This document shows positions 35,848 through 48,991 of a DNA stretch of 64,000 bases, one piece after another. Position numbers and translations under genes: made by a program. The stretch comes from Alteromonas sp. V450 (GTDB lineage Bacteria; Pseudomonadota; Gammaproteobacteria; Enterobacterales; Alteromonadaceae), in assembly GCF_001885075.1 (NCBI RefSeq), contig NZ_MODU01000004.1:2604001-2668000 (forward strand), in the 5' to 3' direction. Numbering within the stretch: position 1 is the stretch's first letter; each line of letters opens with the position of its first letter. The notes under the pieces were generated by a model. The model made no database searches. It saw nothing but the letters and a program-made list of their open reading frames with translations, and was not told the origin of the DNA.

Positions 35848-36582
35848 ATGAGCCAGATTAGTCTTGTTTACGACACTTTGAAGCAATGCTTACGGGAACA
35901 GCGACTTACCTATAAGCGGCTTGCAGAAGCGCTAAATGTGAGTGAAGCGAGTGTGAAGCGTAACTTTTCATTGCAGGCGTTCAGCCTTGATAAGTTAGAG
36001 CAAATTTGTGAGTGCTTAAATTTGTCATTAAGTGATTTATTTAGCCTTTCACAAAAACAGCAGGAGAAAATTTCGCAACTGTCTGAACAGCAAGAAATGG
36101 AACTGCTCGCTAACCCCAAGCTATTACTTGCCGCGGTGTGTGTTCGTGACGGCTGGCGCTTTTCTGAACTCATCGAACATTACGACCTTGATGAAGTAGA
36201 AGGTATTAAACTAATGACGACCCTCGACAGGCTTAAGCTTATCGAACTGTTGCCGAACAACCGTTATAAGCTACTTATCGCACAGGATTTTCGCTGGATC
36301 CCAGGCGGCCCACTAGAGAAATTTATGGAACAGGAAGTTATGGTGAAGTTTATGGACCCAAAGAAAAACGAGCCATGGATGTTCCGTTTCTATTTACGCG
36401 GCCGTTATTCTCAGACCTCAGTTTCGATTATTCAGCGCCGTCTTGAACAACTGCGACAAGAAGCAGCAAAACTCAGCAGTGAAGATAATGCCCTACCAAT
36501 TGAAGAGCGCCAACACATCGGTCTTTTAATGGCGATGCGGCCTTGGGAGCCTTCTCTTTTTGAAAATATGCAGCGAAAATAA
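35848..36582 (+). CDS. XRE-type helix-turn-helix regulator
   Basis: Regulator of 244 residues. The N-terminal Cro/CI-type HTH (about residues 6-62) reads LTYKRLAEALNVSEASVKRN and LDKLEQICECLNLSLSDLF. The rest is a helical domain containing WRFSELIEHYDLDEVEGIKL (possibly a second HTH near residues 100-130) and a C-terminal dimerisation-like part. It is divergent from the valine-rich/DUF2145/yiaA operon over 131 bases, so that operon is the probable target. Confidence 0.83.
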   Translation: MSQISLVYDTLKQCLREQRLTYKRLAEALNVSEASVKRNFSLQAFSLDKLEQICECLNLSLSDLFSLSQKQQEKISQLSEQQEMELLANPKLLLAAVCVRDGWRFSELIEHYDLDEVEGIKLMTTLDRLKLIELLPNNRYKLLIAQDFRWIPGGPLEKFMEQEVMVKFMDPKKNEPWMFRFYLRGRYSQTSVSIIQRRLEQLRQEAAKLSSEDNALPIEERQHIGLLMAMRPWEPSLFENMQRK

Positions 36583-36598
36583 CCCTGTCGAAGTATAT

Positions 36599-36713
36599 TT
36601 GGGGGGGTCAGAGTCCATTTCGTAGAAAAGCACTCCGCCCCCATTGGTTTACTACATAGAAAATTACTCTGATCCCGTTAGTTTACTGCTCAGAAAAGTA
36701 CTCTGACCCTATT
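36599..36713. repeat. GGGGTCAGAGT repeat cluster E
   Basis: One forward end (GGGGTCAGAGTCCATTT near 36604) is followed by three inverse ends: CACTCCGCCCCC, ATTACTCTGATCCC and AAGTACTCTGACCC. Intervening segments (GGTTTACTACATAG, AGTTTACTGCTCAG) are themselves related. The cluster runs up to the stop codon of the NCS1 permease gene. Confidence 0.75.
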
Positions 36714-38214
36714 ATTGGGAGGCGCTTTTTGCCTCCATGGTGACGGGTATTCTGTTGGAGAGCAGCAGATAAACCATGCTGGCGATGATTAGCCCTACAA
36801 ACCATGCATAGGCGTAAAGCGTATCGAAAATAGCTGGCACGCTTTCTACAAAACCAGCTGCGTGCAGAAAACCGGGGATATTGGGTAAAATGCCAATAAT
36901 AAGTGCAGTCACACCCGCCATGTTCCAACCGTTGTTCGCGCCATATTCGCCACTGTGTTGAAATAGCGCATCTATGTTTAAGGTCGATTTTCTTAAGATA
37001 AAATAATCGGCAATCAATATACCCGCGATAGGGCCAAGCAGCGCAGAATACCCGGTAAGCCATGTAAATAAATAGCCCCCCGCGGTTTCAAGCAGCTTCC
37101 AGGGGAAGATAGCAACGCCGATACCAGCGGTTATATAGCCCCCCATTTTGAAGCTTATTTTCGATGGCGCCATATTCGAAAAGCCATAGGCTGGGGCTAC
37201 CATATTAGCGGCTAAGTTTGTGGTTAACGTTGCAAGTGCTAATGCTGCAAGCGCTAACACGACTCCCATTCCGCCCATTCGACCGGCAAGTGCAACAGGG
37301 TCCCAAATAGCCTCACCATAGATGGTTACAGTCGCAGAGGTAACCGCTACACCAATAAAGGCAAACAGTGCCATAGGTAAGGGTAAGCCAATAGCTTGCC
37401 CTAGCATTTGATCTTTTTGTGATTTAGCAAAGCGCGTAAAGTCGGGAATATTTAAAGCCATGGTTGCCCAAAACCCCACCATAGAAGTTAGACCTGCGAA
37501 GAAAGCTGTCCAAAACTGCCCTTCTTTAGCGCCGCCTTCAACAAACTGAGACGGCGTTGACAACATTTCGCCGAACCCACCAGCATTAACGTATGCCCAA
37601 CCAAGAAGCGCTAGCCCCATTAAGATCAAAAATGGTGCAGCAAAAGTCTCAAGCCAACGAATAGATTCAGTGCCGTGCTTTATAAAAACTAAGTGCATCG
37701 CCCAAAAGGCAAAGAAGCACAGAGTTTGTGTGATATCGATACCTAAAAACGGTAACGCTTGCCCCACAAATGCGTCGCCGCTGACACTGTTTAAAATAAC
37801 GTAAATAGCACTGCCGCCTACCCATGTGTTAATTCCAAACCACCCGCATGCTACAAGTCCACGAGCCAGTGCAGGAATCTTCGCGCCTTTGGTGCCAAAT
37901 GCGCTACGTAACAAAACAGGAAAAGGTAAGCCGTATTTGGCACCCGCATGGCCTATTAACATCATGGGTACGAGCACGATAATGTTTCCCAACAGCACGG
38001 TTATTACTGCCTGGTACCAGTTCATACCTTCAGAAACCAAACCTGCTGACAAAAGATAGGTGGGTACACACACCACCATGGCAACCCACAATGCCGCATA
38101 GTCTTTCCATATCCACGTTCTAGTTTCCGCGTTGGTTGGCGCTAAATCTTCATTCCATAAATCGCCATCGTAATGGGAAGGTTTTGTCATGGTTTGATTG
38201 TTGGTGTTATCCAC
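36712..38214 (-). CDS. NCS1-family nucleobase/cation symporter
   Basis: Inner-membrane symporter of 500 residues and about twelve helices, of the NCS1 family (Mhp1/CodB/PucI type). The Mhp1-like signature WFGINTWVGGSAIY is near residue 130, preceded by NWYQAVITVLLGN and GLPFPVLLRSAFGTKGAK; NIPDFTRFAKSQ and ANMVAPAYGFSN follow. It starts with GTG at 38214, AAGGA 8 bases before. It closes the rut cluster, which lacks rutG (a UraA-type carrier), so it most likely imports uracil or a related pyrimidine. Exact substrate unproven. Confidence 0.87.
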   Translation of the reverse strand: MDNTNNQTMTKPSHYDGDLWNEDLAPTNAETRTWIWKDYAALWVAMVVCVPTYLLSAGLVSEGMNWYQAVITVLLGNIIVLVPMMLIGHAGAKYGLPFPVLLRSAFGTKGAKIPALARGLVACGWFGINTWVGGSAIYVILNSVSGDAFVGQALPFLGIDITQTLCFFAFWAMHLVFIKHGTESIRWLETFAAPFLILMGLALLGWAYVNAGGFGEMLSTPSQFVEGGAKEGQFWTAFFAGLTSMVGFWATMALNIPDFTRFAKSQKDQMLGQAIGLPLPMALFAFIGVAVTSATVTIYGEAIWDPVALAGRMGGMGVVLALAALALATLTTNLAANMVAPAYGFSNMAPSKISFKMGGYITAGIGVAIFPWKLLETAGGYLFTWLTGYSALLGPIAGILIADYFILRKSTLNIDALFQHSGEYGANNGWNMAGVTALIIGILPNIPGFLHAAGFVESVPAIFDTLYAYAWFVGLIIASMVYLLLSNRIPVTMEAKSASQ

Positions 38215-38519
38215 GATCTATTTCCTTATTGGGTTTGCTGTTGCCCGCTGCGTTGTTTTACACAACATCGTGCTTAGCAAAGCGGTACGTTAAAGAAAGC
38301 ATCAGTGCTCTCAACGGCATATTGGTTAAGATAGAGGCATACAGCTGAGCTTTACCTCTACTGACAAAAAGAAGCAAAAATACTGCCGTTTCGCGCGCTT
38401 TAATACTGCTAAACCTAAATACCGTTTTGCAGAAGCTGATATTTAGGATAGCTATTCAGGTTTAGTCTTAAAAACAGATGAAGCGCTTTATTTCATTAAA
38501 TAAAGCGCAGCCACTCTAC
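38215..38519. other. Intergenic region, TonB receptor to NCS1 permease
   Basis: About 305 bases. Next to the receptor stop lies a perfect hairpin: GCGCTTTATTT pairs with AAATAAAGCGC over a CATT loop (38483-38508). It has no T-run after it on the coding strand, so it may protect the mRNA 3' end rather than terminate. No gene seen. Confidence 0.55.
38483..38508. repeat. Perfect 11-bp stem hairpin downstream of TonB receptor
   Basis: GCGCTTTATTT-CATT-AAATAAAGCGC. It lies 11 bases beyond the receptor stop codon and is AT-rich in its upper half. Confidence 0.8.
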
Positions 38520-40838
38520 TTAAAAACTACGTCTTAGTGTCACGCCAACCGTTCGTGGCTTGGCATATGAAATTTGCGACGTTCCATAAAACCCAGACAC
38601 ATCGAAGCCTATTAGTTCGTGGTCAGAGTCAAACAGGTTATCTACGTATGCGGCTAGGCTCCATTTGTCTTGCCCATCTACCCACGTTACGCGGGCATCT
38701 GCCGTAGCATAGCTGTCAATTTCATGAGCGGTAAAATTACGCGCATTGTGAAACGTTTCAGACTGATAGTTTGCCGACAGTTGAGCTGCCATATTGCCTT
38801 CAAAGGCATCCCAGTTGTAGCGTACCATGGCAGACGCTTGATACTCTGGGGTAAATGGCGGCGTTGTATCAGCAAAGTACCCAGAGGCCACCTCTAGGTC
38901 TTCAACCACGGCATCGGTATAAGAGAAGTTAACCATTACATCTAAACTGTCTGTCGGGGTTAAGAATACTTCTAGCTCTACCCCGCTAAACGAAGCCTCT
39001 TCATTAGTCACCACGCCCGCATTATTCACCCATGAAAACGACTGATAATTGCTGTAATCATAGTAAAATACGTTAGCATTAAATACGCCGCTTCCTTGCA
39101 TAAAACTATGCTTTAAACCAGCTTCATAAGAAGTGAGCTCTTCAGGTTCATAAAAACTAAAGCCGCCAAATAAAGGCGCATTAAAGCTTCCTGCTTTAAC
39201 GCCTCGGTTGACTCCTGCGTAATACAAACTATTACCCACGCTGTATTCCAACTGAAGCTTTGCCGACCATAAGTTTTGGTCGTTACTTTGCTCAGTAAAT
39301 TCTAGCGAAGGGGTGCTGGTGTCAATCTCAATAACTCGGTCGTCGGTGTTCTCGTTCTGATAAACATTACCCACAAAGTCTTTGTCTTCACGGGTATAGC
39401 GTAAGCCACCAACCAGAACAAGGTCGTCAGTCAAGCTATAGTCTATTTGCCCAAATACAGAGTAAGACTCGGTTTCAAGAGATACCAAGGTGTTATTTTC
39501 TTCACCGCCCAAGAAAAAGGTGGTAGGTGAACCCGCCAAGCCTTGGCTATAGTCTGTATCGATAGACAGATAATAAAGCCCCCCAACCCATTTCAAGTCA
39601 GCAGTTTCACCAGAAAAGCGAAACTCTTGGCTAAACTGCTCTATCGTGCTGTTGGACTGGAAAATAAGTTCGGGTGACGCGGTTTGGTCGGAGTCGAGGC
39701 CGACCGTACGTTTAAATTCTTTATAATCAGACATGGCGAAGAAATCGAATTCTTCGAAGGCATAGTCTAATGTTGCTGCAAGGCCTTTCGATTTGATTTT
39801 GTTTTGATCATCAAAAGCGAAGTCTTTATTTACTTTATTACCCGAACCATCAGGGTCGAAGTTACCATTGAAATCGCCGCCTTGAATGGGACGGAAAGGG
39901 TCGCCATTGAAGTTGCCATCTACGCAAACGCCAGCCTGAATAGTGTCACAACCTAGCGGGTCGTCAGCAGCATAAATAACGTCAATTACATTACCGTCGG
40001 CATCTTTTACTTCTGTGGTATTGACCACCTGATAAGGGCCTTCACTTTTGGTTGTATCAGACCAGTTACCGCTTAGTAGCAGCGAGCCTTCTTCACCAAT
40101 ATCAAATAGCAGTTGAGCTCGAAACGCTTTGGTATCATCGTTGTACCCGTCTTCACCGCCTCCTACTGAACCCAAGCGCGTATCGGGCGCTGCGCCGTCT
40201 TCATAAATATTCTCTAGGATCTCACCTTGCTGATTGGTAAACCCAGAAAAGCGGCCATAAATGCCGTCTGCTAGTTCGCCTGATATCGCCCCTTCGAAGC
40301 GGTATTGCTCGAAACGTGCGGCAGTAAACTCAGCATAACCCTCTGTATCGGCAGTAGGCTTGGCGGTAACCGTATTAACCAGTCCGCCTGTGGCATTTCT
40401 TCCGAATAATGTTCCCTGTGGACCTTTAAGAATTTCGATGCGAGCTACATCGAATAAACCAAAGGTTTGTGCTTGGGTACTGGCTAAATAGCCACCGTCG
40501 ACATAAACCGCCACCGGCGCTTCCGCCAAGTCAGCGTAATCGTTTTGCACCACGCCTCGAATATTGAAAATAGCACGCTGACCACCAATATCCCCGGCTA
40601 ACGATACGCCAGGGGTAAACGCGATAAGCTCAGTGCTGCTTTCAAGGCCAAGCGCCTCTAATTGCTCCCCTGAAAAGGCGGTGATAGCGATACCTACATC
40701 GCTTATGTTCTCGTTGCGTTTTTGCGCTGTAACTTCAATACTTTCCCAAACATTCTCTGCAGCAAAGGCCGCTGGCGTACCAAACGCCATAGCTACGGTT
40801 AACGCCAGCAGACGCTTGTGTGTGTTTAACGTATGCAT
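38520..40838 (-). CDS. TonB-dependent outer membrane receptor
   Basis: Outer-membrane active transporter of 772 residues. The signal peptide MHTLNTHKRLLALTVAMAF ends before AENVWES. A TonB box, IEVTAQKR, lies at about residues 33-40. The plug domain has FNIRGVVQNDY and EILKGPQGTLFGRNATGG, and the beta-barrel ends in VGVTLRRSF with the terminal Phe. Located between mmsA and the NCS1 permease within the rut cluster, it probably brings pyrimidines or nucleosides across the outer membrane. It resembles the FecA/'IroN-like' receptors common in Alteromonas. Substrate inferred from context only. Confidence 0.88.
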   Translation of the reverse strand: MHTLNTHKRLLALTVAMAFGTPAAFAAENVWESIEVTAQKRNENISDVGIAITAFSGEQLEALGLESSTELIAFTPGVSLAGDIGGQRAIFNIRGVVQNDYADLAEAPVAVYVDGGYLASTQAQTFGLFDVARIEILKGPQGTLFGRNATGGLVNTVTAKPTADTEGYAEFTAARFEQYRFEGAISGELADGIYGRFSGFTNQQGEILENIYEDGAAPDTRLGSVGGGEDGYNDDTKAFRAQLLFDIGEEGSLLLSGNWSDTTKSEGPYQVVNTTEVKDADGNVIDVIYAADDPLGCDTIQAGVCVDGNFNGDPFRPIQGGDFNGNFDPDGSGNKVNKDFAFDDQNKIKSKGLAATLDYAFEEFDFFAMSDYKEFKRTVGLDSDQTASPELIFQSNSTIEQFSQEFRFSGETADLKWVGGLYYLSIDTDYSQGLAGSPTTFFLGGEENNTLVSLETESYSVFGQIDYSLTDDLVLVGGLRYTREDKDFVGNVYQNENTDDRVIEIDTSTPSLEFTEQSNDQNLWSAKLQLEYSVGNSLYYAGVNRGVKAGSFNAPLFGGFSFYEPEELTSYEAGLKHSFMQGSGVFNANVFYYDYSNYQSFSWVNNAGVVTNEEASFSGVELEVFLTPTDSLDVMVNFSYTDAVVEDLEVASGYFADTTPPFTPEYQASAMVRYNWDAFEGNMAAQLSANYQSETFHNARNFTAHEIDSYATADARVTWVDGQDKWSLAAYVDNLFDSDHELIGFDVSGFYGTSQISYAKPRTVGVTLRRSF

Positions 40839-41141
40839 GTTTTACTCTCGTTTATAGTTCTTTCTAACAAGCCTTGCGGCGGTGTTGTCCCGATATTTTT
40901 TTGTAAGAGTAACGGTCGACGTGAACTGCATATCGATTGCCACTGGGGTGCAAGACAAAGGCAGGACTGGAGAGGAACTGCCAAAGGCTTGCGGTTTTAA
41001 ATTGTTATTATTGATGGCTCACTGTTAAGCCTAATTTTCTGTTCTTTTACCTGCTGTAAATAGCGAGTTGCCATGAAGGCTGCCTAGCTATTTCGCGGGG
41101 GCAAAGTTCTTATGGTCAGTTAAAACCAATACACCAAGGCA
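40839..41141. other. Intergenic region, mmsA to TonB receptor
   Basis: 303 bases with no gene and no clear terminator. It should hold the receptor promoter, or an untranslated leader if the operon is continuous; no operator matching the one before rutA was found by eye. Confidence 0.4.
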
Positions 41142-42632
41142 TTAACTTGGAAATGAAAAGCTCACGCCTTCTCGAACGCCGCTCGAAGGCCAACGCTGAG
41201 TAATGGTTTTGCGTTTGGTGTAAAAGCGCACGCCATCTGGGCCGTATGCGTGAAGGTCACCAAAGAGAGAGCGCTTCCACCCACCAAAGCTGTGATAAGA
41301 CACGGGCACTGGCAGCGGAACGTTTATGCCTACCATGCCCACTTGGATATTGTCTGAGAAGTAACGGGCAGCCTCGCCATCACGGGTGAAAATACAGGTA
41401 CCATTGCCGTACTCATGGTTGTCAATGAGCTGCATGGCTTGCTGCATACTGTCAACGCGCATGACTTGTAGTACAGGTCCAAAAATTTCAGCCTTGTAGC
41501 TGGCCATTTCAGGCGTAACCTTGTCGATAAGTGTTGCACCTAAGAAGAACCCCGTCTCGTAGCCTTCTACGCTAGGGTCTCTGCCATCTACGACCACATC
41601 TGCGCCTTGCTCAGCCGCACTGCTAATGTACCCTTCTACTTTCTCTTTGTGCTGAAGGGTAATAAGCGGGCCGAAATCGTTAGTCGCATCGTCAAAAGCC
41701 CCTACTTTTAAGCCTTTCATGGCTGATTGCATTTTATCTACAATTTCATCTGCCACTTTATCGCCTACGGCAACCACGACAGACAACGCCATGCAGCGCT
41801 CGCCTGACGAGCCAAAAGCAGCACCTAAAAGCTGATTCACTGCGTTATCGATGTCGGCATCAGGCATCACAATAGCGTGGTTTTTAGCGCCACCTAATGC
41901 TTGGCAGCGCTTGCCATTAGCATTGGCTTTTGAATAGATGTATTCGGCGATAGGCGTTGAACCTACAAAACTCACTGCTTTAATGCGCTCGTCATCAAGT
42001 ATTTGATCAACCGCTTCTTTGTCGCCGTTAATAACGTTAAAAACGCCGTCGGGTAGCCCTGCTTCTTTAAGTAGCTTGGCTAGGAAAATGGCGCAGCTTG
42101 GATCGCGCTCAGAGGGTTTTAAAACAAAGGTGTTACCGCAAACAATGGCAAGCGGAAACATCCAAAGGGGCACCATGGCCGGAAAGTTAAATGGTGTAAT
42201 TCCCGCCACCACGCCAAGAGGCTGAAACTCGCTCCAAGAGTCTATACTTGGCCCAACATTTTTACTGTGCTCGCCCTTTAACAACTGGGGTGCACCGCAG
42301 GCAAACTCAACATTTTCAATACCGCGCTGTAATTCGCCTGCCGCATCGTGGCTTATCTTGCCGTGCTCCGCACCAATTAATGCAATAATTTCATCGGCAT
42401 GTTCTTCAAGTAAGCTTTTAAATTTGAACATAACGCGAGCGCGCTTACTTACTGGCGTATTACGCCACTCAACAAACGCATTTTGCGCGCTGACGATAGC
42501 GTCGTTTACCGTCGCTTTTGACGCCAGTAAAACCAGTTTTTCTGCCTCGCCCGTCGCCGGGTTATAAACATCTTGCATGCGCCCCTTTGGGGTACAGGTT
42601 TCACCGTTAATAAAGTGGCCTACTACTTTCAT
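41142..42632 (-). CDS. mmsA: CoA-acylating methylmalonate-semialdehyde dehydrogenase
   Basis: NAD-dependent, CoA-acylating aldehyde dehydrogenase of 496 residues converting malonate semialdehyde to acetyl-CoA and methylmalonate semialdehyde to propionyl-CoA, with CO2 release. Family marks are VVGHFINGE at the start, GITPFNFPAMVPLWMFPLAI near residue 140, VGSTPIAEYIY, QALGGAKNHAIVMPDAD, and the catalytic Cys in GSSGERCMALSV (near residue 280). The C-terminal GGWKRSLFGDLHAYGPDGV is typical. It lies 19 bases after rutF, linking Rut products to central metabolism. Confidence 0.94.
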   Translation of the reverse strand: MKVVGHFINGETCTPKGRMQDVYNPATGEAEKLVLLASKATVNDAIVSAQNAFVEWRNTPVSKRARVMFKFKSLLEEHADEIIALIGAEHGKISHDAAGELQRGIENVEFACGAPQLLKGEHSKNVGPSIDSWSEFQPLGVVAGITPFNFPAMVPLWMFPLAIVCGNTFVLKPSERDPSCAIFLAKLLKEAGLPDGVFNVINGDKEAVDQILDDERIKAVSFVGSTPIAEYIYSKANANGKRCQALGGAKNHAIVMPDADIDNAVNQLLGAAFGSSGERCMALSVVVAVGDKVADEIVDKMQSAMKGLKVGAFDDATNDFGPLITLQHKEKVEGYISSAAEQGADVVVDGRDPSVEGYETGFFLGATLIDKVTPEMASYKAEIFGPVLQVMRVDSMQQAMQLIDNHEYGNGTCIFTRDGEAARYFSDNIQVGMVGINVPLPVPVSYHSFGGWKRSLFGDLHAYGPDGVRFYTKRKTITQRWPSSGVREGVSFSFPS

Positions 42633-42651
42633 TATTTGTCTAATCCTTTAG

Positions 42652-43182
42652 TTATGCGTCTTTACATGCGCTGTGATAGCCGCGCTGATAATATAAAAGC
42701 GCGTCGGCTTCTGGGTCTTGCTTGATATCCACCACCTGGCAAAAAATAACGTCGTGAGTGGCCACACTTTTAACGTCTGTAATAATGCAATCGAAGCTGA
42801 CTGCAGCATCGGCAAGTCTTGGGCAGCCGGTCGTCGATTCCACCCAATCACCAATTTCAAAGCGTTCGTTCATGGGCGCTTTGCCACCAAATGTGTTTGA
42901 AATTAACTGATGCTGTGAAGTAAGGGTGTTGATAACCAAATGCGTGCTGTTTTTAAAAACCTGATGTACAGATGCACCGCGATTTAAACAAACCAATAAG
43001 GTTGCAGGGTTATCACTTACGCTACATACGGCGGTCGCCGTAAAGCCTGCACGCCCTTCTGGGCCAATGGTTGTAACGACGTTTACCGCTGCCGCTAAAC
43101 TCGACATACCTTCTCGATAAGCTTCGGGAGTTACCGGGGGAAGCACTTCTGTTACTGCGTTTTTTATTGCTGTAATAGTCAT
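42652..43182 (-). CDS. rutF: RutF flavin reductase
   Basis: NAD(P)H:FMN reductase of the DIM6/NTAB family, 176 residues; it supplies reduced FMN to the RutA monooxygenase. Typical stretches are YREGMSSLAAAVNVVTTIGP, GRAGFTATAVCSVSDNPATL, VCLNRGASVHQVFKNS and TTGCPRLADAAVSFDCIITD. It lies between rutE and mmsA with short gaps (22 and 19 bases). Confidence 0.93.
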   Translation of the reverse strand: MTITAIKNAVTEVLPPVTPEAYREGMSSLAAAVNVVTTIGPEGRAGFTATAVCSVSDNPATLLVCLNRGASVHQVFKNSTHLVINTLTSQHQLISNTFGGKAPMNERFEIGDWVESTTGCPRLADAAVSFDCIITDVKSVATHDVIFCQVVDIKQDPEADALLYYQRGYHSACKDA

Positions 43183-43204
43183 ACAAATATCCTTTAAGTT
43201 GGCG

Positions 43205-43825
43205 TTACACGATGTGGCAGGCTTGCTCGAAACTTAAGCGAGGTAAGCGTTTATGTACTTTCTCTTTATCGCCGTAGCCAATGTTCAGTAAGAAATTCAC
43301 CTTCCACGTGCTATCTGAAAAGAAAGTTTCGTTAAGTAATGTGGGGTTGAAACCAGACATGGCGCCAGCGTCAAGGCCTAGGGCGCGAACGGCGCTTATT
43401 AAGTAAGCCCCTTGCATAGAGCTATTGCGCATGGCGGTCTCATAGGCCGCTTCTGGACTTGAAGTAAACCAACTTTTCGCATCTGCATAAGGGAATAACG
43501 TAGGAAGCTCTTCGTAGAACTCTTCGTCGTAGGCCACTATAACCGTACAGGGTGCGGTCATGGTTTGTTCAACATTACCGCTTGAAAGGCTAGGTTTGAG
43601 CTTTTCTCTCCCTTCATCTGAGGTAATGAAAACAAATCGCGCTGGGCTGCAATTTGCCGATGTCGAGCCTACTTTTACTAAATCGTACAGCTGTTTCAAC
43701 ACAGCTTCTGAAATAGGTTTGTCGTGCCATTTGGTGTGGGTATGCGCATCGGTAAAGAGTTGGGCTAGTCCAGCCTCGGCAAGCGGGCTAGTTGCTTTAA
43801 ACTCTGTATTTTGTGTATCAGTCAT
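43205..43825 (-). CDS. rutE: RutE malonic semialdehyde reductase
   Basis: Nitroreductase-fold flavoprotein of 206 residues reducing malonic semialdehyde to 3-hydroxypropionate in the Rut pathway. It contains [57 protein letters not shown] and [20 protein letters not shown], as in RutE proteins. It shares its substrate with MmsA encoded two genes downstream. A 178-base gap separates it from rutD, so a second promoter is possible. Confidence 0.93.
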
Positions 43826-44003
43826 TTTAAATTCATTCCAGTTTTATCAGATCTTTTAAGCGCTACGCTATGCTCTCGGTTTTTACGCTTAGCGCTTTTT
43901 TAGCTATCACGTTATTGAAGCTGTAGCTTTGCAGCTTGTTTACAATGCATACGCCTCATCAGTTGAGAAACACCTCATAGCTTGATGCAGTGTCGTGTTC
44001 ACG

Positions 44004-44852
44004 TTAGGCCACTTGCCCTAAATAGCTGCGCAGCAGTTCATTAAACGCAATTGGGTTTGTAATGCTTGATGCATGCCCGCCGTATTCCATGACCGACAAT
44101 TCGGCGTTGGGCATAGCTTCAGCCAACATCTGTGAACGCTGCCACGGCACCAAGGTATCGTCTTTGTTGGCAAGCGCTAACGTTGGTGTGGTGATGGCGT
44201 GCAAACTCTTATCAATATTGAACGTACTAAGGGCACCAATGCGGGCGAGCAGATTTTCTTCGTTAGGGAAATGGTTGAGTAAGTGCGCCTCTTCCTCTGC
44301 CAAGTGGGCGGCATTCGCGGCTATCCAATCAGGCGGAAACAGCAGCAGCGCCTGAAGTTGCAAATACATGTCCTTTCTGCCTGCCGCCAATAACGCTTTG
44401 CGTATATTAAAGCAGCGCAATGTGTGCGGATTTGGACTGCTCCACGCATTTACCAGCACTAAACTTTGTAAAAGCTTAGGTTTAGACAAAGCAAGCTCAA
44501 GCCCCACCAAACCACCCAGCGCGTGACCGACGAAATGGCACGCTTGCACTTCAAGTTTTCTAAGAAGTGCAGCGAGTTCATCCGTCATATTTGAAATGCT
44601 GTAATTCGCTGGCAAGTCACCCACACTTTTGTTCGTGCCATAGTGATCGTAAGTAATCACTCTGTAATCTTGGGTAAAGTCAGCCAGTTGAGGCTGCCAA
44701 AATTTTGCTGCCCCGCCCAGTCCAGAACTAAACACAATCGTAGGTGCGTCGGGCGACGTTAAACCGTGAATCTCGTAATGTAACTTGTTGCCCACTTCAC
44801 CGTTCATTTCGCCGCTCATGTGGGCGTAGCCTGCCTGCGCATCAGAATGCAT
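44004..44852 (-). CDS. rutD: RutD aminoacrylate hydrolase
   Basis: Alpha/beta-hydrolase-fold protein of 282 residues acting after RutC on aminoacrylate in the Rut pathway. The nucleophile elbow reads FVGHALGGLVG: Ala replaces Ser, as in E. coli RutD, fitting a non-classical mechanism or a role in speeding spontaneous hydrolysis. Other marks are IVFSSGLGGAAKFWQPQLAD and the His-bearing MEYGGHASSITNP. The ATG at 44852 with AGG 8 bases before is preferred over GTG 44861. It has a roughly 20-residue N-terminal extension relative to E. coli. Confidence 0.9.
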   Translation of the reverse strand: MHSDAQAGYAHMSGEMNGEVGNKLHYEIHGLTSPDAPTIVFSSGLGGAAKFWQPQLADFTQDYRVITYDHYGTNKSVGDLPANYSISNMTDELAALLRKLEVQACHFVGHALGGLVGLELALSKPKLLQSLVLVNAWSSPNPHTLRCFNIRKALLAAGRKDMYLQLQALLLFPPDWIAANAAHLAEEEAHLLNHFPNEENLLARIGALSTFNIDKSLHAITTPTLALANKDDTLVPWQRSQMLAEAMPNAELSVMEYGGHASSITNPIAFNELLRSYLGQVA

Positions 44853-44910
44853 AAAGCTCACCTAAATAAAACCAATGGGCGCAGTTCGCGGGTAGTCCAA
44901 ACATAACCGT

Positions 44911-45294
44911 CTACCCAATGTGCGCTACAGATGCGATTTCAATTAAGGCCTCTGGTTTTACCAGCCCAACTTTAATGCAGTAACGCGCCGGTTTTTCACC
45001 TGGAAAGTATTCGGCGTACACCTTGTTTACCGCGGCGTAGTCATCCCAATCGGTAATAAAAATTGAGTTGAAAGTGACGTCATCCATAGTGCCGCCCGCT
45101 TCTTCGATGACGCTTTTAATGGTTTCTAAAACGTGGCGCGTTTGTGCTTCGGCGTCGCCCACGTGGACTACATCGTTGTTTTCGTCAAACGGTAAGGTAC
45201 CTGACACATATAGAATATTGTCAGCCATAGAGCCTGGAACAAAAGGAGCTATGGGTGTTGATGTACCTGCTGGAATAATGGCTTTCTTTGGCAT
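44911..45294 (-). CDS. rutC: RutC 3-aminoacrylate deaminase (RidA family)
   Basis: YjgF/RidA-family protein of 127 residues; it deaminates or reduces peroxyaminoacrylate-derived intermediates to aminoacrylate and its semialdehyde. It shows [53 protein letters not shown] and [18 protein letters not shown], with the Arg of the RidA active site in PARYC. It lies between rutB and rutD. Confidence 0.93.
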
Positions 45295-45426
45295 GTTCTT
45301 ATCCTTTTCGTTGCGCTTTCTATACGTTGCTGCCTAGCGCCTATAAATGGTTTATTTCAAATTGTGCAAACTGATTTATCGCGTTGTTTTTGTCTGCGTG
45401 GCTACTAGATGCTAAGAAGAAAGCAC

Positions 45427-46161
45427 CTAACTCGTCCCTTCAAATACTTCACAGAACTGCGCGGTGGTAGACACCCACCCGAAAAACGTCTGAATGTTGA
45501 AAAGTGAGGCCTCGTGAATGTCTGGCGGGCCAGCTTGATATGCCGCATCGGCCAGCACCACACCAAAATATTCCAGATGGAAGCCATCGCGCAGCGTAGA
45601 TTCCACACACACATTGGTTGCAATGCCTGTAAACACTAAGTTGCGAATACCGCGTGCGCGCAGCATGCTGTCTAAATTAGTATTGTAAAAACCGCTGTAA
45701 CGGGTTTTAGGAATAATGATGTCGCCATCTTGAGGCTTTAGCGCATCGACAAGCGCGTAATCCCAAGTACCTTTGGCCAGCAAACTTCCCTTAAGCTCTG
45801 GTTGTTTGCGCATGGTTTTAAGGGCATTAGACTTATACCAGTTCGGCGAACCAGGGCCGCCGGCCTCTTTATAGTCGGCATCCCATCCATTTTGTAAGAA
45901 CACCACAGGCATGCCTGCAGCCCGCGCTGTTTCAAGCACTTTAGTGGTGTTTTCAATGACTGGCGCCGTAGTGGACACATCAAAACCCGCCTTGTCTAAG
46001 TAGCCGTTTTTACTGGCATAAGCGTTTTGCAAATCCACCACAATAACGGCAGTTTCCGCAGGGTTTAACGTCAACGGTTCAGGCTTAGCTGGCAGTACGG
46101 GCTGCCCTGTTTGACGTGCTTGAAAGCACCCTGAGACCTCAAATATTTCACCGGCTGACAT
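45427..46161 (-). CDS. rutB: RutB ureidoacrylate amidohydrolase
   Basis: Isochorismatase-fold cysteine hydrolase of 244 residues that cleaves ureidoacrylate (or its peracid) to carbamate and aminoacrylate. Catalytic residues are Asp in [14 protein letters not shown], Lys in [15 protein letters not shown] and Cys in [17 protein letters not shown]. Its ATG overlaps the rutA stop in TAATG. The C-terminus ends [10 protein letters not shown] 132-base gap precedes rutC. Confidence 0.95.
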
Positions 46162-47249
46162 TAGGCGGCTCCCGATGTGCTAAGCAAGTGCTGACGGGAT
46201 TTCATTAGCGGCTGAATTTTAGTGCCGAAATCATCCATGCCTTTAAGGAAGTCATCGAAGGTCAGCAATACACCTTCACAGCCCGGCACTGTGGCTATTT
46301 CATCAAGCATAGAGGCCACCGACTCATAGGAACCCACCAGCGTCCCCATGTTCAGGTTTACTGCTGAGGTTGGGTTGGTCATATCGCGGATATTCGTGTC
46401 TTTACCCGATTTCTTATCAGCAGCTCCTTGCGTTGCCATCCAGTCCAACGCGGACTGATCTTTGCCGTCTTTATAGCTTTCCCATTTCGCCATGGCGGCT
46501 TCATCCGTCTCATCGGCAATAACCATGATAAGTACCGCTGAACCTACGCTGCGACCGTGTTTTTCAGCCGCTTCAGTTAAGCGCGCTGCGGTTGGTGCAA
46601 AAGCGGTAGGTGTATTTACGCCTTTACCAAAGCAGAAATTATAGTCGGCATGACGGGCAGAGAAATCCATGCCTGCTGCGCTTTGACCGGCACAGATAAG
46701 TGGAATTTTTCGCTGTGGCTTGGGCAACATTCGGCAATCATCCATTTGGAAATGCTCGCCTTTAAAATCGCTTTTTCCGGTTTCCCATAATTCTTTGACT
46801 ACCTGAATGTATTCATCCAAATACTCATAGCGGTTACCGAAAAATTCATCGCCCGGCCACATACCCATTTGCGAGTATTCAGGGCGTTGCCAGCCAGTGA
46901 CTAGGTTTACGCCAAAACGTCCGTTGGAGATAGAGTCGATGGTACTGGCCATGCGCGCCATGATTGCAGGCGGCAAGACTAGTGTGGCAGCCGTGGCATA
47001 TAGTTGAATTTTTGAGGTAACAGCAGCAAGGCCTGCCATTAACGTAAACGACTCTAAGTTGTAGTCCCAAAATTCGGTTTCACCGCCAAACCCTCGCAGT
47101 TTGATCATAGAGAGCGCAAAATCCATATCGTACTTTTCAGCCTTCATTACAATCTCTTTGTTGAGATCGAAGGAAGGTTTGAACTGAGGCGAATTTTTCG
47201 AAATTAACCAGCCGTTGTTACCAATTGGAATAAATACACCTATATCCAT
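46161..47249 (-). CDS. rutA: RutA pyrimidine monooxygenase
   Basis: FMN-dependent luciferase-like monooxygenase opening uracil or thymine between N3 and C4. The protein has 362 residues from ATG 47249, which has AGAGGGA upstream; an in-frame start at 47315 would add 22 residues not expected in RutA. Marks are [56 protein letters not shown] and [20 protein letters not shown]. It is the first gene of the cluster, divergent from rutR. Confidence 0.96.
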
Positions 47250-47402
47250 GTTGTTCCCTCTGCTTGTTTGCGTTTTAAGCGGTTTACCCCGCTTTTTTAA
47301 GGTTGCCGAATTCAAAACATTGAAGTGGCGGTATACATAGTGAACAGCATAAAGCAGGCCAATTTATTAAATCTCTAATTTTCAACAACTTAAGAGTTAT
47401 CG

Positions 47403-47432
47403 AAATTGAAATTAGACCCTTTGGTTCAATTT
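47403..47432. promoter_or_regulatory. Candidate RutR operator
   Basis: In the rutA-rutR gap, TAGACC-CTTT-GGTTCA (47413-47428) resembles the E. coli RutR site TTGACC-ANNT-GGTCAA: spacing is identical and 9 of 12 half-site bases match. A second dyad overlaps it, AAATTGAA (47403-47410) with TTCAATTT (47425-47432). Either could be bound by the TetR dimer. Confidence 0.5.
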
Positions 47433-47557
47433 GGAACATCCAGTCCAGTGCAACTGAACTTAATTGGTGCATATTTGTGCAAATGGGTTTATAGGTGAGA
47501 AAACTGCGCGTAAACTATGCGCTAGATTGTAGAAATCCGGTTAAGAAGAATCGAGTA

Positions 47558-48232
47558 GTGAGCAAATCTGAAGACCAAGTAAATACAAAAACAGTAAGAG
47601 CATTTAGCCCTAAAACCCAAAAGCGGCGAGAAAAGGCGCTTCAAGAAAAGCGCACACGTATTATGGATGCAGCGCTATCTTTGTTTGCAAAAAACGGCGT
47701 TAACGGCACAACGGTAGAGCAAGTTTCTGAGTTAGCGAATGTCTCAAAAAGTAATTTATTGTATTACTTTAAAAGTAAAGAGGGTTTGTACTTATCGGTT
47801 ATTACCCACCTTTTAGATGTGTGGTTAACGCCTCTTCAGAGCTTTTCAGCAGAACAAGACCCTATAGAAACCCTGAGCGACTACATTAAAGTAAAACTTG
47901 AAATGTCGAGGGACAATCCCGCTGAATCTAAGCTTTTTTGTATGGAAGTGGTACAAGGTGCCCCTCTTTTAATAAAGGAATTAGAAACGCCGCTCAAAAC
48001 ACTGCTGGACGCGAAAAGCGCCGTCATTATCGAATGGATTGAAGCGGGTAAGCTAAAGCCTGTTGATCCTATACACTTGATATTCAGCATTTGGGCCATT
48101 ACTCAGCATTACGCCGATTTCAGCGTGCAGATCAAAGCCGTAACTGGTAAAGATTTAAGCGATCCCGCTTTCTTCGAGAGCACGCTAAGCAACATTCAGC
48201 ACATTATTTTAGGCGGGCTAAAGCCAGCGTAA
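47558..48232 (+). CDS. rutR: RutR, TetR-family pyrimidine regulator
   Basis: TetR-family repressor of 224 residues from GTG 47558 (MSKSEDQ after translation); an earlier GTG at 47495 would add 21 residues. The HTH reads RIMDAALSLFAKNGVNGTTV and LANVSKSNLLYYFKSKEGLY. The ligand domain contains KLEMSRDNPAESKLFCMEVV, GAPLLIKEL and HLIFSIWAITQHYADFSVQI, all closely like E. coli RutR, which binds uracil and thymine. It is divergent from rutA; derepression by uracil is expected. Confidence 0.93.
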   Translation: MSKSEDQVNTKTVRAFSPKTQKRREKALQEKRTRIMDAALSLFAKNGVNGTTVEQVSELANVSKSNLLYYFKSKEGLYLSVITHLLDVWLTPLQSFSAEQDPIETLSDYIKVKLEMSRDNPAESKLFCMEVVQGAPLLIKELETPLKTLLDAKSAVIIEWIEAGKLKPVDPIHLIFSIWAITQHYADFSVQIKAVTGKDLSDPAFFESTLSNIQHIILGGLKPA

Positions 48233-48319
48233 TACTTGATGCATGAGTTGCCATGGGCGTGGAATAAATTTGAGGGAGGGTCTTTTGGCGCTCTCGCATG
48301 TGGAGGACATTAACCACTC

Positions 48320-48991
48320 TTACAATGGTAATAGTGACGAACTTTCTTTCAAAAAACCTTCCAGTCGCTCGACCTGGATAATTGCCACGCCCCCGTAGCG
48401 CTTTTCAATCAACTTTAAATCATACAGCTTCGTTAATGATTTATGTGCGGTAAGTACGGTAACGCCCAATCTTTCAGCATAATCGCTTTGCCTTAACGGT
48501 ATAAAGACGTGCTTAGAGGTAAGATACGATTGATAAATTAGCTTAGCTAACTGGACGTGAGTGGGTAAGCGTCGAATATCATCCAACCTTTCCAGCGCCG
48601 AGTGAAGCTTTATTGCCAGTGACCGGGTGATGAATTCAGCAATCGCTGGATGTTGGCTTGTCAGAGAACGAAAAGCAGGTTCAGGTATTTGTAATACCTT
48701 ACATTCCGTTAGCGCTTCAGCGTGATGCGTTCTTGCAAGTGATGCATACAATGTGAACTCGCCAAACGTATCTCCTCGTTGCAATACAGTAGTAATTTGA
48801 TAACTGCCGTCCAGGCCATAATTACCAATCTTTACTTCTCCTGATACCACAACAGACAGCCCTTTGTTTTTACTTCCCCTATCGTGAATTGTCGCGGTAG
48901 CCGCATAGGTTCTTAGCGTTCCAAAAGGCAAACAAAGCGCGACGTATTCGTCAGGCATAATGGTTTGCTGTTTGCCGTGAATGTAAGACAT
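48320..48991 (-). CDS. Crp/Fnr-family transcriptional regulator
   Basis: Regulator of 223 residues from ATG 48991. The N-terminal cyclic-nucleotide-binding-like beta-roll spans about residues 15-120 (GLSVVVSGEVKIG, RGDTFGEFTLYASL). The dimer helix follows, then a C-terminal winged helix (IPLRQSDYAERLGVTVLTAHKSL, about 165-188). The FNR cysteines are absent, so no Fe-S sensing. Divergent from the sterol-desaturase-family gene over 86 bases, its most likely target. Effector unknown. Confidence 0.88.
   Translation of the reverse strand: MSYIHGKQQTIMPDEYVALCLPFGTLRTYAATATIHDRGSKNKGLSVVVSGEVKIGNYGLDGSYQITTVLQRGDTFGEFTLYASLARTHHAEALTECKVLQIPEPAFRSLTSQHPAIAEFITRSLAIKLHSALERLDDIRRLPTHVQLAKLIYQSYLTSKHVFIPLRQSDYAERLGVTVLTAHKSLTKLYDLKLIEKRYGGVAIIQVERLEGFLKESSSLLPL

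Follow-up and report, generated by a model that had tools for sequence, protein, structure and literature searches.

The Rut enzymes degrade uracil to malonic semialdehyde and thymine to methylmalonate semialdehyde, and in Escherichia coli K-12 they are encoded by a rutABCDEFG operon with a divergent rutR. Here we describe a related cluster at positions 36712 to 48232 of a 64,000-nucleotide stretch of the genome of Alteromonas sp. V450 (contig NZ_MODU01000004.1, positions 2,604,001 to 2,668,000; hereafter the window), studied by comparative sequence analysis in which L and G numbers label the compared loci and genomes, respectively. Open reading frames and curated families confirm the composition given in an earlier note on this DNA: rutR, on the plus strand, diverges from nine genes on the minus strand in the order rutA, rutB, rutC, rutD, rutE, rutF, mmsA, a TonB-dependent outer membrane receptor gene, and an NCS1 symporter gene. 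As in E. coli K-12, the enzymes RutA to RutF are present by family, and a predicted operator lies between rutA and the divergent rutR. The cluster differs from that of E. coli in having an NCS1 carrier in place of the NCS2 protein RutG, in the addition of mmsA and the receptor gene, and in a predicted operator with an 18-bp core and a 4-bp spacer instead of the E. coli RutR 16-mer. Within the cluster, to which this search was confined, there is no rutG or NCS2 gene.

A second described system, the reductive pathway of PreTA, dihydropyrimidinase, and ureidopropionase, uses different ring chemistry, and yet its loci in Paraglaciecola arctica and elsewhere carry the same receptor family and an NCS1 carrier, some of them with MmsA and two with a RutR-like regulator. 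The V450 genome itself has no PreA at an E value of 1e-60 and no dihydropyrimidinase above the cut-off. On the regulatory side, Leyn et al. (2016, PMC5343134) reconstructed RutR regulons in 68 genomes, with a mean of 10.9 genes and a motif that changes by taxon, and predicted TonB-dependent receptors in regulons for hydroxyproline, histidine, and N-acetylglucosamine; the passages considered here name no receptor for RutR, and table S3 of that article or RegPrecise could list one.

We propose, with a probability of about 0.74, that the cluster is a RutR-controlled operon for breaking down uracil and thymine that also encodes import across both membranes. The receptor would bind a free pyrimidine base and draw it through the outer membrane, and the NCS1 symporter would, judging from its family, carry it over the inner membrane in the role of RutG. 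RutA would open the ring using reduced flavin from RutF, and RutB, RutC, and RutD would lead on to malonic semialdehyde (from uracil) or methylmalonate semialdehyde (from thymine), which RutE would turn into a hydroxy acid or MmsA into acetyl-CoA or propionyl-CoA; propionyl-CoA may then enter the methylcitrate route, so that both carbon and nitrogen would be gained. RutR would repress rutA through the predicted operator until uracil appears, and the receptor gene would be transcribed by read-through from the rutA promoter or from its own promoter with a conserved leader. Iron complexes, vitamins, and sugars are the main cargoes for which active transport through the outer membrane is known. 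If the proposal is true, a receptor for a base small enough to pass porins would extend that range and suggest that dissolved pyrimidines are contested at concentrations at which diffusion limits growth.

One receptor family and three known or probable pyrimidine pathways

The cluster is a real, conserved unit in the genus. Among 36 genus-level genomes, that of V450 included, RutA scored above the cut-off in 14, and 12 of these 14 keep the gene order of the window. A receptor orthologue (70 to 100% identity) occurs in 16 of the 36, 12 with RutA and four without RutA above the cut-off (G004, G009, G028, and G032) but with dihydropyrimidinase; the latter enzyme, above the cut-off in 8 of 60 relatives, is found within the genus in exactly these four. 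The next full-length receptor matches in the 36 genomes fall to about 30% identity, with one paralogue reaching 46% over the plug only. No receptor was found in the 18 genomes having neither RutA nor dihydropyrimidinase, so that it is carried by 16 of 18 pathway genomes and by 0 of the 18 that remain (P = 4e-8 in a Fisher test, uncorrected for kinship). Simple counts of this kind are inflated by kinship and by co-transfer of clusters, and several receptor carriers are metagenome-assembled genomes (MAGs).

Farther afield, members of the receptor family (60 to 99% identity) adjoin three unrelated first steps, namely, Rut, PreTA, and a coenzyme F420-associated oxidoreductase of family TIGR03842 together with dihydropyrimidinase. 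PreA with a PreT-like neighbor stands at the receptor in two genomes of P. arctica and in three MAGs, one from Cellvibrionaceae, one from Woeseia, and one from another gammaproteobacterium (658.7 bits at L064 and 682.4 bits at L088, cut-off 335; the remaining PreA loci were assigned by BLAST). Named genomes scanned with the receptor alignment yielded 47 loci, of which the 38 at 60% identity or more were counted and the other nine left out; at least one of five markers (RutA, PreA, TIGR03842, dihydropyrimidinase, and NCS1) lies within the fetched stretch in 28 of the 38. We also searched 29 whole carrier genomes, hand-picked from the receptor loci and mostly ones not already reached as relatives. 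Four encode RutA, nine PreA, and 12 TIGR03842 above the cut-off, four encode none of these (G073, G077, G078, and G085), and two together were never seen, the pattern to be expected if a single importer serves three first steps that replace one another. Dihydropyrimidinase is present in 22 of the 29 (0 of 4 with RutA, 8 of 9 with PreA, and 12 of 12 with TIGR03842, plus G073 and G085), and TIGR03842 matches of 209 to 218 bits, below the cut-off, occur in G078, G085, and G086. Outside the 29, genomes G000, G009, G028, G038, G043, G057, and G059 were also searched for PreA and TIGR03842. Its occurrence beside three pathways may make the receptor a useful marker for pyrimidine utilization and an aid to function assignment, for example, that of TIGR03842. 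Relatives of the receptor on plasmids were limited to four records at 37% identity or less; the single record examined that has annotation names no pyrimidine genes.

The probable third pathway is seen in the four receptor carriers of the genus without RutA above the cut-off. There, the receptor (70% identical) comes after a RutR-like TetR gene, a full coenzyme F420 set (cofG, cofH, cofD, cofC, cofE, and npdG), and a TIGR03842 oxidoreductase gene; families were run on G009 only, G004, G028, and G032 being matched to it by BLAST, and the cluster of G032 is split across contigs. In G009, the oxidoreductase scored 520 bits (cut-off 295) and the TetR protein 198.6 bits with TIGR03613, below the cut-off, and the adjoining divergent operon encodes an omega-aminotransferase, a methylmalonate-semialdehyde dehydrogenase (MMSDH), a carbamoylase-family amidase, an NCS1-like carrier (326.5 bits, below the 353.1 cut-off), and a dihydropyrimidinase (584 bits, cut-off 393). 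The solved protein closest in sequence to TIGR03842, a Mer-like member of the luciferase family, is F420-dependent methylene-tetrahydromethanopterin reductase (E = 5e-26). By annotation, a Leisingera plasmid carries TIGR03842 with cofGHDCE, npdG, a dihydropyrimidinase, a Zn-dependent hydrolase, and an aminotransferase, and it also encodes a RutR-like regulator (198.3 bits, below the cut-off); a Paracoccus plasmid has TIGR03842 and F420 genes but no dihydropyrimidinase within the 21 kb read. The simplest reading is that TIGR03842 is probably an F420H2-dependent uracil/thymine reductase. F420 genes with TIGR03842, and with dihydropyrimidinase there or nearby, were seen at L049 to L052, L068, L070 to L076, L080, L113 to L116, and L129, which thus encode a probable F420-dependent reductive pyrimidine pathway.

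The receptor encoded in the window has a plug within a beta-barrel and belongs to the TonB-dependent receptors by domains, model, and Protein Data Bank (PDB) matches (AlphaFold2 model with a predicted local distance difference test score of 79.8 and a predicted template modeling score of 0.82). The fold search returned generic receptors only, the best PDB match of the model being FyuA (4epa; E = 1.6e-43), and the protein falls outside the TonB-siderophore subfamily TIGR01783 (147.8 bits, cut-off 223.5). This weak match and the FyuA-like fold would suit a receptor of the common kind, for a siderophore or a vitamin, that travels with pyrimidine genes by chance, and so would the F420 cluster of G009, where thiC follows the neighbors of the receptor, as might fit a receptor for thiamine or hydroxymethylpyrimidine. 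We nevertheless regard a chance association as very unlikely, since the same receptor is retained in at least six gene arrangements with three unrelated first-step enzymes, since carriers without RutA or dihydropyrimidinase number zero among the 36 genus genomes, and since the palindromes described below are of RutR type or are shared with catabolic genes.

The ligand might instead be a larger pyrimidine compound (a nucleoside, nucleotide, nucleic acid fragment, or conjugated base) from which enzymes encoded elsewhere release the base in the periplasm. Most ligands of known TonB-dependent receptors are too big for porins, the fold matches are siderophore receptors, and a long stretch of the receptor (265 to 346), which we assign to the extracellular side, averages 0.81 in conservation. 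A larger ligand is nonetheless improbable in our view, as the usual inner membrane partner, NCS1, belongs to carriers of free bases and hydantoins and no nuclease, nucleosidase, or nucleoside phosphorylase was seen among the identified cluster genes (not all neighbors were identified). The lack of the latter two enzymes among those genes makes a free base likelier than a nucleoside as the ligand. Of the suggestion in the earlier note that the receptor captures pyrimidines or nucleosides, the nucleoside part has lost ground. Support for a role of the receptor in pyrimidine use now goes beyond adjacency, through its association with three pathways and through the palindromes of related genomes, which are shared or of RutR type. 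We rate the receptor as a strong candidate for the active import of pyrimidine bases.

Unusually conserved receptor loops were considered and rejected: the loop-to-strand conservation ratio was 1.06 (1.12 in a 12-member set), versus 0.97 in a single control receptor of higher identity, with loop borders drawn by hand from the model and L096 and L098 (about 31% identity) excluded. The modeled extracellular loops appear to be at least as conserved as the strands, in weak support of the proposed importer.

At three loci (L082, L092, and L094), the stretch around a receptor relative of 63 to 70% identity contains none of the five markers; at L092, the one locus of these on which family searches were run, they identified an M28 peptidase, an MFS carrier, and a class III aminotransferase as neighbors. 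In these loci, the receptor has perhaps been put to a different use.

Predicted RutR sites, shared palindromes, and the receptor leader

The rutR-rutA gaps of 13 clusters have in common the palindrome AATTrGACCnnntGGTYcAATT. With a matrix built from these 13 sites, that of the window among them, the site of the window scored 28.8, the next match in the window 10.8, and the best match in 20 shuffles of the window 17.5. A weak operator-like stretch at 47429 to 47450, whose score of 8.3 is within noise, lies 19 bases from the main site, and second operator-like stretches with the same 19-base spacing were seen in L046, L047, and L048 (scores of 9.8 to 16.1). Scans for promoters and terminators in the window did no better than shuffles (10 promoter-like versus 15.2 and 17 terminator-like versus 15.0 matches). 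The receptor gene may be read through from rutA or may be under its own control.

Related genomes tie similar sites to the importer itself. In Paraglaciecola marina, the receptor-NCS1 pair is detached from the rut genes, and a site scoring 26.4 begins 218 bases upstream of the receptor, with a second site (17.9) in the rutR-rutA gap; because P. marina did not contribute to the matrix, these sites lend independent support to RutR control of the importer. In two PreTA clusters (L088 and L091), a perfect TTGACC-N4-GGTCAA, a pattern derived from these same loci, lies between the divergent NCS1 and receptor genes, and the longer palindrome of L088 was not matched in 200 shuffles; the RutR-like proteins there scored 178.8 and 176.4 bits with TIGR03613, below the cut-off. 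The F420 clusters of seven distinct Alteromonadaceae genomes have GTTTCAT-N4-ATGAAAC (with at most one mismatch) twice per stretch, before the receptor gene and before a lysR gene on whose other side the aminotransferase operon starts; in L071, the stretch stops short of the latter. The regulator that recognizes this palindrome is probably the LysR protein.

Several findings weigh against the proposed RutR-controlled import and degradation operon. No good RutR site was found ahead of the receptor or NCS1 gene in the window or in other Alteromonas rut clusters, nor in the rutR-rutA gap of L128, and the E. coli 16-mer occurs at no cluster promoter, its six matches in the window, at three mismatches each, comparing with 2.87 expected. 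Two RutA-positive genomes lack the receptor, G001, which has mmsA and NCS1, and G022, which has NCS1 and neither the receptor nor mmsA in the cluster; the search for PreA took in only a minority of the 18 genus genomes that have neither receptor, RutA, nor dihydropyrimidinase. None of the five markers lies in the stretch at 10 of the 38 receptor loci, two of which are contigs of less than 4 kb, one bearing a nitrilase of the kind found in PreTA clusters, and 2 of the 29 whole carrier genomes (G077 and G078, both MAGs whose completeness is not stated) have no RutA, PreA, dihydropyrimidinase, or TIGR03842 above the cut-off. The sequence and modeled fold of the receptor indicate no nucleobase receptor, the closest solved structures being siderophore receptors, and a small base could pass porins, so that such a receptor would be dispensable in rich media. 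Finally, rutE is retained beside mmsA, though MmsA should make it dispensable.

The receptor gene of Alteromonas rut clusters is also preceded by a conserved leader. The 160 to 170 bases upstream of the receptor start differ by 2.9 to 12.4% in the aligned part, while 4-fold sites of the receptor gene differ by 20 to 74% in the same eight comparisons (L046 and L048 aligned over just 97 and 100 of 174 bases), and this conservation is real. A leader model, R1, had one match each in 15 of 59 genus genomes, mostly in sequences used to build the model or near ones, with strict filters and with the neighboring genes viewed except in G095, G096, and G103. It had no match in 27 loci besides the window, F420 clusters, PreTA clusters, and the receptor's own paralogues included; thus far, the leader has been seen in Alteromonas rut clusters only, among the sequences searched. 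Rfam gave no match to it at E values up to 1 across positions 36000 to 48500, and a stable structured RNA by energy alone was rejected (fold z-score, −0.81). In helix 1, four pairs have changed on both sides, a count reached by 4 of 500 shuffles, and the number of further pair types was reached by 145 of 500; a helix over the ribosome-binding site has no covariation support because it is nearly invariant. The leader may be an RNA switch, a target of a small RNA, or a protein-binding DNA region.

On a broader view, marine Gammaproteobacteria may possess a dedicated family of TonB-dependent receptors for free pyrimidine bases that has been exchanged freely among three degradation routes of differing chemistry, the third of which would be new, with the F420-dependent TIGR03842 protein making dihydrouracil instead of PreTA and its own F420 genes in the cluster, and the Alteromonas rut leader, which can pair over the ribosome-binding site, would possibly be a pyrimidine-responsive switch. 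We give this joint proposal about an even chance of holding as a whole. Among the papers listed in literature searches, no title or opening of an abstract gave a lead on a pyrimidine TonB receptor or on TIGR03842; subscription journals were thinly covered, and a published precedent is possible.

Possible fates of the pyrimidine carbon

Among solved structures, MmsA matches the MMSDH 4zz7 best (884.8 bits over nearly the full length) and belongs to the CoA-acylating MMSDHs. The 4zz7 protein is DddC of Oceanimonas doudoroffii, from the dimethylsulfoniopropionate pathway, and its operon context differs. Carbon use from uracil and thymine is plausible, because MmsA is of the subtype found in F420 pyrimidine clusters (69% identical to the MMSDH there) and because the genome encodes a methylisocitrate lyase, PrpB (428.8 bits, above 354.4). 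The earlier suggestion that MmsA opens a route from malonate semialdehyde to acetyl-CoA and from methylmalonate semialdehyde to propionyl-CoA has thereby gained in plausibility; with rutE retained beside mmsA, the carbon may be split between the two enzymes. It is possible, if somewhat unlikely, that the cluster serves nitrogen scavenging only, as in E. coli, in which case MmsA would act on semialdehydes of other kinds and the base would lose its carbon as 3-hydroxypropionate. The presence of rutE in 14 of 14 rut clusters and the Rut genes of G022, without mmsA in their cluster, would fit such a role; a second MMSDH in the V450 genome (55% identical to MmsA, best match 4e4g) is available for other uses, however, and the subtype of MmsA and the presence of prpB likewise speak for use of the carbon.

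Features of the cluster

The host genome measures 4.39 Mb, and its closest named relatives by receptor are A. portus (99%), A. gracilis (97%), and A. marina (96%), all three of which have the cluster as well. Coordinates and family scores are collected in Table 1. RutA to RutE each exceed their curated cut-offs and belong to the Rut pathway. RutF falls below its cut-off, and its flavin reductase domain and gene position are consistent with RutF; RutR exceeds one of two curated models and has a YcdC-like C-terminal domain. E. coli RutC is described as a 3-aminoacrylate deaminase (PMC8113886). The closest solved relatives of the NCS1 carrier are structures of the hydantoin permease Mhp1 (4d1a and 2jln; E = 4e-35). 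In the established Rut chemistry, RutA acts as a pyrimidine oxygenase and RutB takes ureidoacrylate as its substrate. The rutA start was set at the ATG at 47246, the mechanical open reading frame starting at a TTG at 47315, and the start codon of rutR is uncertain, as the match to the RutR model begins at residue 44.

Table 1. Features of the rut cluster of Alteromonas sp. V450, with positions in the window
Feature	Position	Strand	Basis
NCS1 nucleobase:cation symporter, where rutG would be expected	36712..38214	-	TIGR00800, 390.8 bits (cut-off 353.1); PF02133
TonB-dependent outer membrane receptor	38520..40838	-	PF07715 plug and PF00593 beta-barrel
Conserved leader, candidate cis-regulatory RNA; receptor start codon within its 3' end	40836..40995	-	Conservation
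mmsA, CoA-acylating (methyl)malonate-semialdehyde dehydrogenase	41142..42632	-	TIGR01722, 685.6 bits (above cut-off)
rutF, flavin reductase	42652..43182	-	Best family TIGR03615, 224.3 bits (below cut-off of 254.75); PF01613
rutE, malonic semialdehyde reductase	43205..43825	-	NF003768, 294.5 bits (cut-off 152)
rutD, alpha/beta hydrolase of the Rut pathway	44004..44861	-	TIGR03611, 342 bits (above cut-off)
rutC, Rid-family protein	44911..45294	-	TIGR03610, 248.2 bits (above cut-off)
rutB, isochorismatase-fold amidohydrolase	45427..46161	-	TIGR03614, 408.8 bits (above cut-off)
rutA, luciferase-type pyrimidine oxygenase	46161..47246	-	TIGR03612, 682.3 bits (above cut-off)
Predicted operator for RutR, a 22-bp palindrome in the rutR-rutA gap	47410..47431	.	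Footprint of rutR-rutA gaps
rutR, TetR-family regulator	47495..48232	+	PRK15008, 272.5 bits (above 230); TIGR03613, 298.4 bits (below 368)

Two other loci hold a second cluster with distant likeness to Rut (L055, 192 to 10762; L057, 1720 to 11664), in which RutA-like (37 and 36% identity) and RutB-like (36 and 32%) proteins are encoded with another TonB-dependent receptor; that of L055 adds an MFS carrier and formamidase-like, LigB-like, and TauD-like proteins. A possible role of these second clusters is the degradation of another nitrogen compound.

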